From positions 1 to 35,788 of the forward strand of contig PLSW01000102.1 of NCBI GenBank assembly GCA_003165275.1: 35,788 nucleotides of DNA, given 5' to 3'. Position 1 is the stretch's first letter. Each line of letters begins with the position of its first letter. This DNA comes from Caulobacteraceae bacterium. Lineage in GTDB: Bacteria; Pseudomonadota; Alphaproteobacteria; Caulobacterales; Caulobacteraceae. A model generated the notes under the pieces. That model saw only the letters and a program-made list of their open reading frames with translations. It did not search any database and had not been told where the DNA came from. Below, in pieces: positions 27,678 through 29,555 of the stretch. The position numbers and the translations under genes were made by a program.

Positions 27678-27792
27678 CCGTCACCCCCGGGCTTGTCCCG
27701 GGGCAAGGGAACACGAACGGGCCTCGTGAGCATTGCTGCAAGGATTTCGCCGTCTGTGATCCCCTCCCCCGGGACAAGCCCGGGGGTGACGG
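27678..27792. repeat. REP-like palindrome pair in inverse orientation
   Basis: Two 26-base copies (27678-27703 and 27767-27792) are exact reverse complements separated by 63 bases. Each copy contains its own palindrome (CCCCGGG-CTTGT-CCCGGGG), so each can fold alone or the two can pair in one long stem. This layout matches REP doublets (BIME-like) seen in intergenic DNA of many proteobacteria. No transposase gene is present within or beside it. It fills most of the 228-base gap between the methyltransferase and the aminotransferase-like gene. Confidence 0.85.
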
Positions 27793-27886: not shown

Positions 27887-28804
27887 TTGGCCGGCAGCCA
27901 GGACTTTCAGGACGATCCCCGCAACGCGACCGTGCTGGTCAGCCTCAACGGCGCGCTCGTGCCGCGGGGCGAGGCCAAGGTCTCCATCTTCGACGCCGGC
28001 TTTGTGGTCGGGGACGGGGTCTGGGAGGGCCTGCGCCTGCACAAGGGGGCGCTGCTGTTCCTGGAGACCCACCTCGACCGCCTCTACGCCGGCGCCAAGG
28101 CCATCGCCCTGGACATCGGCCTCACCCGCGAGGCCCTGACCGCGGAAATCCGCCGCACCCTGGACGCCAACGGGTTCACCGACGGGACCCACCTGCGGGT
28201 GATGGTCACCCGGGGGCCGAAGACCGGCGCCAACCAGGATCCGCGCAACGCCCTGGGCATCCCGACCATCGTCGTCCTGGCCGAATGCAAGGTCCCCAGC
28301 CCGGCGGTGGCGACCCGCGGCCTGTCCCTGGCCACGGCCTCGATCCGCTGCACCCCGGCGGAAATGTTCGACATGCGGCTGAACTCCCACAGCCGTCTGA
28401 ACCTGATCACCGCCCTGCTGCAGGCCATCGAGGCCGGCGCCGACGAGGCGCTGATGCTGGACCCGCACGGCTTCATCTCCAGCTGCAACGCCACCAACTT
28501 CTTCTGGGTGAAGGACGGCGTCGTGCGCACCTCGCTGGGGGACTACTGCTTCAACGGCGTCACCCGGGCCAATGTGATCGCCCTCTGCCAGGAGGGCGCG
28601 GCGCCGATCGAGCTGGGAGACTATCCTTTGGACGCGGCCCACGACGCCGACGAGGCCTTCGTCACCGGCACCTTCGGCGGCCTGACCCCGGTGCGCGAAA
28701 TCGACGGCCACGCGCTGAAGGCCGCCCTCCCGGGCCCGGTCACTCGGCGCCTGCGCGCCGCCTACGAGGCGCTCAAGGACGCCGAGGCAGCCCGGCATGG
28801 CTGA
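27887..28804 (+). CDS. Class IV aminotransferase-like protein without the canonical PLP lysine
   Basis: A 305-residue fold-type IV protein related to branched-chain and D-amino acid aminotransferases. SIFDAGFVVGDGVWEGLRLHKG, HLDRLYAGAKA (Arg65, PLP phosphate), FNGVTRANVI (Thr226, phosphate) and FGGLTPVREIDG match the fold. However, the segment that should hold the Schiff-base lysine reads FDMRLNSHSRLNL, and there is no lysine at all between 135 and 209; the usual glutamate before the NxTNF motif is Ser199 (GFISSCNATN). It may be a pseudoenzyme or use different chemistry. TTG 27887 is chosen because GGGGAGGG lies five bases upstream. The stop overlaps the next gene by 8 bases. Confidence 0.88.
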   Translation: MAGSQDFQDDPRNATVLVSLNGALVPRGEAKVSIFDAGFVVGDGVWEGLRLHKGALLFLETHLDRLYAGAKAIALDIGLTREALTAEIRRTLDANGFTDGTHLRVMVTRGPKTGANQDPRNALGIPTIVVLAECKVPSPAVATRGLSLATASIRCTPAEMFDMRLNSHSRLNLITALLQAIEAGADEALMLDPHGFISSCNATNFFWVKDGVVRTSLGDYCFNGVTRANVIALCQEGAAPIELGDYPLDAAHDADEAFVTGTFGGLTPVREIDGHALKAALPGPVTRRLRAAYEALKDAEAARHG

Positions 28805-29555
28805 GGAGGCCCTGCGCAACGCCCCCCTGCGAATCGCGATGTGGTCGGGGCCGCGCAACATTTCCACCGCGATGATGCGGGCCTTCGAGAACCGGCCGGA
28901 CACGGCCGTCGTCGACGAGCCCTTCTACGCCGCCTATCTGGCCACCACCGGCGCCGCCCATCCGATGCGGGACGAGGTCCTGCGCAGCCAGCCCACCGAC
29001 TGGCGCAAGGTCGCCGCCGCGCTGGCGGGACCGAGCCCGGACGGCGCGCCGGTCTTCTACCAGAAGCACATGACCCACCACATGACCCCCGACGTGGGCC
29101 TGGACTGGATGGCCGCCTGCCGCAACGTCTTCCTGATCCGCCGCCCCGCCGAGGTGATCGCCTCCTACACCGCCAAGCGCGAGACGGTGGACCTGGCCGA
29201 CATCGGCGTGGCGCGTCAGGCCGAGCTGTTCGACCGGGAGGCCCAGCGCCTGAGCCGCGCGCCCCTGGTGATCGACAGCGCCGACGTCGCCGCCGATCCC
29301 CGCAGCCTGCTCACCGCCCTCTGCGCCGCCCTGGGCATCCCCTTCACCGACGCCATGCTCTCCTGGCCCGCCGGCTCCCGCCCCAGCGACGGGGTCTGGG
29401 CGCCGGCCTGGTACGACCAGGTAGAGCGTTCGACGGGCTTTGAGATTCGGACAAGGGCAGCGGCGCCGGCGCTGCCGCCGGCGTCGCAGCGGGTCGCCGA
29501 CGCGGCGCAGCCCTACTATGCGGCGCTGGCGAAATGGGCGTTGTCGGCGTCCTGA
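28797..29555 (+). CDS. Sulfotransferase-like P-loop protein
   Basis: A 252-residue protein with a sulfotransferase-type fold. MWSGPRNISTAMMRAFENR (15-33) corresponds to the 5'-phosphosulfate loop, followed by VVDEPFYAAYL; FLIRRPAEVIASY carries the 3'-phosphate-binding Arg/Ser pattern; VIDSADVAADPRSLLTALCAALGIPF and the DGVWAPAWYDQVERSTGF block follow. From memory, plant proteins named branched-chain amino acid aminotransferase-like join this domain N-terminally to a class IV aminotransferase domain, so the two proteins probably work together. The ATG overlaps the aminotransferase-like gene by 8 bases. True sulfotransferase activity is not established. Confidence 0.85.
   Translation: MAEEALRNAPLRIAMWSGPRNISTAMMRAFENRPDTAVVDEPFYAAYLATTGAAHPMRDEVLRSQPTDWRKVAAALAGPSPDGAPVFYQKHMTHHMTPDVGLDWMAACRNVFLIRRPAEVIASYTAKRETVDLADIGVARQAELFDREAQRLSRAPLVIDSADVAADPRSLLTALCAALGIPFTDAMLSWPAGSRPSDGVWAPAWYDQVERSTGFEIRTRAAAPALPPASQRVADAAQPYYAALAKWALSAS

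Follow-up and report, generated by a model that had tools for sequence, protein, structure and literature searches.

A class IV aminotransferase-like protein without its Schiff-base lysine is paired with a sulfotransferase in two bacterial phyla

We find that a class IV aminotransferase-like (AT-like) protein that lacks the Schiff-base lysine, and whose gene overlaps a sulfotransferase gene, belongs to a system that is more general than first observed, occurring in two phyla and in two forms. The lysine is the defining residue of B6 aminotransferases; the class IV clade described here has dropped it and kept the phosphate cup, its new pocket residues are as constant as a catalytic set, and most carriers keep the sulfotransferase partner across the two phyla. 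Sequence comparisons suggest that the two genes are a conserved functional unit and point to a conserved pathway in two bacterial phyla. Our preferred reading, to which we give a probability of about 0.4, is that the AT-like protein is a non-transaminating B6-phosphate protein with histidine chemistry, acting in one pathway with a PAPS-dependent sulfotransferase. Hereafter, Asn-form, His-form and lysine-form refer to the residue at the Schiff-base lysine position.

The window, by which we mean the whole stretch of DNA that was analysed (35,788 nucleotides), contains the following features:

27887..28804, + strand: lysine-less class IV AT-like protein, 305 aa, TTG start (Pfam Aminotran_4, 7.6e-42)
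28382..28384, + strand: codon of Asn166, at the Schiff-base lysine position (alignment to 5mqz and 7z79)
28388..28390, + strand: codon of His168, within the NSHS motif of the Asn-form (His in 145/145 Asn-form rows)
28481..28483, + strand: codon of Ser199, which replaces the glutamate contacting N1 of PLP (aligned rows)
28797..28804, + strand: 8-base overlap in which the AT-like gene ends and the sulfotransferase gene starts (ATGGCTGA; sequence)
28797..29555, + strand: sulfotransferase, Sulfotransfer_5, 252 aa (Pfam PF19798, 1.4e-73; fold match)
28842..28871, + strand: conserved loop WSGPRNISTA, sulfotransferase residues 16-25, which we take to be 5'-phosphosulfate-binding-like
29139..29165, + strand: conserved motif RxPxxxxxS, sulfotransferase residues 115-123, which we take to be 3'-phosphate-binding-like

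The TTG start at 27887 agrees with the alignment of homologues, the consensus of the relatives starting MAGSQDF at that point. No NCBIfam model reached its cut-off for either protein. Aminotran_4 genes number four in the window's genome, whereas the Sulfotransfer_5 gene of the window is its only one. The upstream LCM methyltransferase was rejected as a partner (0 matches across 141 loci searched), as was a conserved third gene, none of the listed neighbour clusters recurring with all pairs; beyond the pair the neighbourhood is local synteny only, for example an argG-like neighbour (named by eye) in genomes of family f16. Between the methyltransferase and AT-like genes (27680-27790) lies a dispersed inverted-repeat element, the 24-base arm of which has 82 copies in the genome (42 forward and 40 reverse at two or fewer mismatches; 0 for the reversed control). 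These arms are often paired face to face about 90 bases apart, and in several variants both sides of the arm's inner palindrome are altered together.

Both the profile match and a fold search place the AT-like protein among class IV aminotransferases. The predicted model (mean pLDDT 84.3) matched 7z79 with a Z score of 36.0 (296 residues, rmsd 2.0) and 9j32 with 35.2, and the next 48 matches (rows 3-50, Z 27.9 to 32.2) are all titled aminotransferase or transaminase save 8ivp and 8isc, which are titled MV. Up to residue 300 the protein has lysines at 31, 53, 71, 112, 135, 209, 278 and 297, and Asn166 falls on the Schiff-base lysine of 5mqz (NIKSLNYLN in 5mqz, RLNSHSRLN in the window). The protein has Arg65, Asn166, His168, Ser199 and Thr226. 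The window protein is thus without both the Schiff-base lysine (Asn166) and the N1 glutamate (Ser199) of class IV aminotransferases, and it keeps their three phosphate contacts (R65, T226 and T262), the roles of which in fold type IV are taken from PMC12429042. What the preliminary description had read from this locus, namely that no lysine lies between 135 and 209, that Arg65 and Thr226 are kept as phosphate contacts, that Ser199 replaces the conserved glutamate and that the two genes overlap by 8 bases, was borne out. It had also said that an alignment with a conserved lysine in the active site would overturn its claim; no alignment gave the protein a lysine at that place.

The substitutions are shared by the relatives of the window protein. 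In a scan of genome contigs, all 80 loci have Asn at the lysine position, so that decay in one genome was rejected as the cause of the lysine loss; the glutamate position in the same loci is Ser in 76 and Thr in 4. Among 398 Pseudomonadota genomes searched, the 41 with a strong AT-like match all have the Asn, the His at +2 and Ser/Thr. Over 173 aligned rows, which contain genes fetched twice, the lysine position is Asn in 145, His in 13 and Lys in 15 (136, 7 and 15 distinct rows). As these groups are defined by that residue itself, the unity of the lysine-less rows is shown by the tree only and not by the count. His168 is present in 145/145 Asn-form rows, and the N1-glutamate position is Ser in 87 of these and Thr in 58. 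The His-form, found in a second phylum (that of the genome holding locus L081, titled as an Actinomycetes bacterium), has its histidine at the lysine position itself and keeps the glutamate (13/13 rows, as in 15/15 lysine-form rows). The phosphate contacts are common to all three groups: Arg65 is found in 173/173 rows, Thr226 in 172 (with one gap) and Thr262 in 169 (the other four being Ser, Ala and two gaps). The O3' tyrosine is replaced by Arg or Lys in all 145 Asn-form rows and by Leu in all 13 His-form rows. Five further residues, W46, H102, K112, E133 and N201, each occur in at least 143/145 Asn-form and 13/13 His-form rows and in 0/15 lysine-form rows. To judge from these alignments, the AT-like pocket is remodelled and not decayed, since the phosphate contacts are kept and five new residues are near-invariant.

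In a maximum-likelihood tree of 55 representatives (chosen from 166 aligned rows by 75% clustering, with some lysine rows on long branches), the 43 Asn-form and four His-form rows formed one group (96/84) apart from the eight lysine rows, with support of 100/100 for the Asn-form and 100/99 for the His-form. This topology suggests that the lysine was lost once. A second tree covered 44 selected sulfotransferases. The 38 whose genomes also have an AT-like gene grouped together at 90/93, and the His-form partners were interleaved among the Asn-form partners (two joins, 99/100 and 91/90), unlike the AT-like tree with its four His-form rows, in which the forms do not mix. Because one sulfotransferase family pairs with either form, the Asn-form (with His168) and the His-form seem interchangeable and may do an equivalent job.

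The sulfotransferase was likewise identified by profile and by fold. In a search with its predicted model (mean pLDDT 89.2), the first 44 rows are sulfotransferases, led by TPST1 (5wrj, Z 14.2), a curacin domain (14.1) and an olefin synthase domain (14.0); the Teg12, Teg14 and StaL rows are counted among them. P-loop nucleotide-binding enzymes appear at Z 9.0, beneath these 44. Conservation of the 5' loop and the 3' RxPxxxxxS motif is as expected of a PAPS-dependent sulfotransferase: W16, P19, R20, S23 and T24 are each present in 97-99% of 142 sequences, and Lys90, His95, Arg115, Pro117 and Ser123 are at 1.00 (rounded), R115, P117 and S123 being at 1.00 also in 11 sulfotransferases of the unpaired kind. 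From its motifs and predicted model, the window sulfotransferase looks complete, and by its family it would use PAPS; the APS kinase, a PAPS-making enzyme, that is encoded in the window's genome is merely permissive for such use. A search of phages gave 0 matches to the sulfotransferase.

Weaker relatives in Sulfotransfer_5 belong to the same Pfam family and have PAPS-site-like motifs like those of the window protein, but they score at most 82 bits, are without an AT-like neighbour in the loci seen and lie outside the paired group in the sulfotransferase tree. Seven of them have an ATP sulfurylase joined or directly downstream. In the second phylum one such protein is joined to a sulfate adenylyltransferase in a single 636-aa frame (L251:2324-4231, - strand), and among twelve further loci a co-oriented sulfurylase follows directly in six (L284, L286 and L288-L291) of the eight that had been chosen for their long frames and in none of the remaining four. 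On a Dolichospermum plasmid (L122), a cyanobacterial Sulfotransfer_5 gene has cysC (adenylyl-sulfate kinase) close by, and its annotated neighbours include no aminotransferase.

The AT-like and sulfotransferase genes occur together. In the genome-contig scan the sulfotransferase lies downstream of the lysine-less gene in 76 of 80 loci; two of the other four (L082 and L083) end right after the gene, and a Sulfotransfer_5 search in the genomes of the remaining two (L028 and L076) found none. Among 60 near relatives, the sulfotransferase and the lysine-less gene are each present in 16 genomes, the set being identical for the two, and in nine genera that hold both carriers and non-carriers the two genes agree in every genome. 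Across the 398 Pseudomonadota genomes the sulfotransferase is present in 38 and the lysine-less gene in 41, with both in 37 and neither in 356; the Fisher tests of co-occurrence treat genomes as independent, ignoring relatedness. Four genomes have the lysine-less gene only, with no sulfotransferase anywhere in the assembly, and one has the sulfotransferase only (a weak 62-bit match). In the second phylum, PF19798 matches were found in 49 of the 346 genomes searched, being strong (6.3e-40 or better) in 23 and at 82 bits or below in the other 26. The lysine-less gene is found in 23 genomes, the very ones that match strongly, and is next to the sulfotransferase gene in 23/23; this correspondence rests on the gap in match strength, as none of the 26 genomes with weak matches belongs to that set. 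The next aminotransferase matches in that phylum number 29 in 28 genomes (7.4e-65 or worse); the seven of these that were read all have the lysine and no sulfotransferase match.

Linkage is the rule, with exceptions. The two genes are linked in 28 of the 37 Pseudomonadota genomes with both and unlinked in nine, lying on different contigs in seven of these and on one contig in two (G140 and G263), where the distance is well over half a million bases even if the contig is circular. In 130 linked loci, a set that contains genes fetched twice, both genes are always on one strand, and in 119 they are 100 bases or less apart; the median gap is -4 across 117 Asn-form loci, gaps being measured from start codons chosen by rule. 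The AT-like gene comes first in 115/117 Asn-form pairs and the sulfotransferase in 13/13 His-form pairs. A bacterial fusion of the two genes was rejected, no fused frame being present in the 130 linked loci. That the sulfotransferase has a partner which is conserved but altered in its catalytic site, as the preliminary description had proposed, is strongly supported by the near-invariant remodelled pocket, the co-occurrence and the mostly adjacent genes in two phyla. That description had also taken homologues regularly far apart as evidence against the pairing, and that is what nine of the 37 genomes have, yet both genes are present there.

In the nine genomes of family f16 with separated genes (L155-L163 and L164-L172), the AT-like copy is nearer to a Ruegeria megaplasmid copy (71-78%) than are eleven linked copies (64-68%), one linked copy, L183, being at 82%. 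In three genomes of the second phylum, His-form pairs (L237-L240) are followed by an opposite-strand gene, which in L240 reaches 460 of the 575 bits that the UDP-sulfoquinovose synthase model sets as its cut-off.

Lysine-less genes are also found in a different setting, beside transporter genes. On plasmids they adjoin polar amino-acid ABC transporter genes at six annotated loci on the same strand and at one unannotated locus, and at two further plasmid loci such transporter genes lie on the other strand; two more lysine-less genes lie by TRAP genes and one near branched-chain ABC genes. Some of these loci also hold a GntR regulator, a ClC channel, a pyrroline-5-carboxylate-reductase-like gene or an MmgE/PrpD gene, and ClC chloride-channel genes recur near the lysine-less gene (L116, L118, L120, L174 and L296). 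No sulfotransferase match was found within the twelve transporter-type regions, and the Asn, His and Ser/Thr motif residues are kept in 12/12. Among the sulfotransferase-less Pseudomonadota carriers, G276 and G301 have the ABC context and G332 has no such match (G382 was outside this check). As lysine-less genes lie beside amino-acid transporter genes, the substrate is probably amino-acid-like, and since lysine-less genes without a sulfotransferase exist, their chemistry does not necessarily depend on a sulfation step in the cell that carries them.

In the mechanism that we propose, the AT-like protein would bind PLP or PMP through the phosphate group and would not be a turnover transaminase; an internal aldimine cannot form where the Schiff-base lysine is missing, and transaldimination is unlikely to be rapid. 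By analogy with ColD, acid-base work could be done by a histidine on the strand that once carried the lysine: His168 in the Asn-form and the lysine-position histidine in the His-form. Together with its PAPS-dependent partner, the protein would process one amine- or keto-bearing small molecule, most likely with the sulfotransferase sulfating a hydroxyl and the lysine-less protein then carrying out a B6-assisted lyase or tautomerase step on the same molecule. Against a B6 role, PLP may bind the Asn-form weakly or not at all, as this form also has Ser or Thr for the N1 glutamate and Arg or Lys for the O3' tyrosine. In a more specific and quite unlikely version of the scheme, sulfate is a leaving group: the sulfotransferase would activate the hydroxyl of an amino compound, and the lysine-less, histidine-based fold type IV protein would hold the B6 adduct and expel the sulfate. 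Were that so, the substrate of the transporter branch would arrive already carrying a leaving group, the anion and the imine product would be dealt with by the ClC channel and the pyrroline-5-carboxylate-reductase-like genes found in part of the transporter loci, and two phyla would have fold type IV enzymes of a class that does without the lysine.

Other explanations bear on the same evidence. The AT-like protein could be a pseudoenzyme or scaffold, an aminotransferase fold without B6 chemistry that serves the sulfotransferase as a subunit or substrate-presenting partner. In its favour, the Asn-form has other residues for all three of lysine, N1 glutamate and O3' tyrosine, and the two genes mostly overlap or abut, with the median gap given above, and co-occur. 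We consider this possible but doubtful: a mere scaffold would not need the phosphate cup and new pocket residues that are near-invariant in the 158 lysine-less rows, and the AT-like gene stands without an adjacent sulfotransferase in the transporter loci and without any in four whole genomes. Alternatively, the phosphate cup might hold another phosphorylated ligand (e.g. PAP, PAPS or a phosphorylated amino compound), with the AT-like protein serving its recycling or delivery as a ligand-binding or hydrolytic partner. The only contacts to the cofactor kept in the Asn-form are those to the phosphate, and the partner, by family, would use PAPS; the transporter-linked branch nevertheless keeps the same motif residues without an adjacent sulfotransferase, and we know of no PAP-binding precedent in fold type IV, so that this explanation is unlikely.

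A working transaminase or lyase with its Schiff base on another lysine would draw on Lys112, which is present in 156/158 lysine-less rows and in 0/15 lysine-form rows, where Gly is commonest. This near-constancy means that lysines are present, but away from the canonical place. Two lysine-less rows have Arg at 112, the Lys112 loop, going by class IV structures, is presumably close to the carboxylate of the substrate rather than to C4' of PLP, and the depositors of 9j32, by its title, restored the lysine at the canonical place; a relocated lysine therefore seems very unlikely. That the pairing is shared inheritance of a chromosomal segment with no joint function, for which the relatedness of many carriers (Caulobacterales; family f16) and Fisher tests that ignore it leave room, is highly improbable given the nine genera in which the two genes agree in every genome, the nine genomes that keep both genes unlinked, the reversed gene order between the His- and Asn-forms and the exchange of partners in the trees.

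Our preferred reading, of a non-transaminating B6-phosphate protein, can be set against known systems. Branched-chain and D-amino-acid aminotransferases share fold type IV and the Arg65, Thr226 and Thr262 phosphate contacts with the window protein, whereas the Asn-form is without their Schiff-base lysine, N1 glutamate and O3' tyrosine and the lysine-less clade adds Trp46, His102, Lys112, Glu133 and Asn201. In ColD, E1 and SpnQ (PMC8987622), the lysine is replaced by a histidine that serves a PMP adduct as both base and acid: PMP and a keto substrate form a Schiff base, and the histidine takes a proton and drives off the hydroxyl. Putting the lysine in (E1 H220K) is reported to have given transamination without turnover (PMC8987622). 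These nucleotide-sugar 3-dehydratases are of the B6 family and share the Lys-to-His change with the His-form, but their fold, as given there (PMC8987622), is aspartate-aminotransferase-like and that of our proteins is class IV, and in the window the lysine position is Asn166, with the histidine at +2. No aspartate-aminotransferase-like dehydratase was recognised among the best 50 fold matches of the AT-like model, a list from which absence is not exclusion. The system makes it testable whether histidine can replace lysine in the class IV fold.

Plant AT-like proteins have a sulfotransferase domain and an aminotransferase-like domain in one chain, sulfotransferase first, and by the preliminary description would keep the lysine. 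Their domain order is that of the His-form pairs; the window has two overlapping genes in place of a single chain. In the curacin pathway, sulfation precedes elimination, and the curacin sulfotransferase domain is among the nearest folds to the window sulfotransferase.

The closest known protein is that of 7z79, titled as an aminotransferase-like protein from Variovorax paradoxus, which is the best solved-structure match to the window AT-like protein (E 5.4e-103), followed by 9j32, titled as its mutant N174K. It is of the same family and shares the NSHS motif, with SSCN at the glutamate; it differs in grouping (100/99) with four plasmid genes that lie beside ABC transporter genes with no adjacent sulfotransferase. 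The depositors had met the missing lysine, as 9j32 puts a lysine back in the 7z79 protein. The lysine loss itself is therefore not new, a lysine-less member having already been crystallised, and the preliminary description's term "undescribed" holds only in part. It may hold for the pairing: a search of one open-access library listed no paper on 7z79, 9j32, this family or the pairing, and neither the His-form nor the shared pocket was found in print there. With the relatives described here, the orphan crystal structure 7z79 gains a family with a genomic partner.
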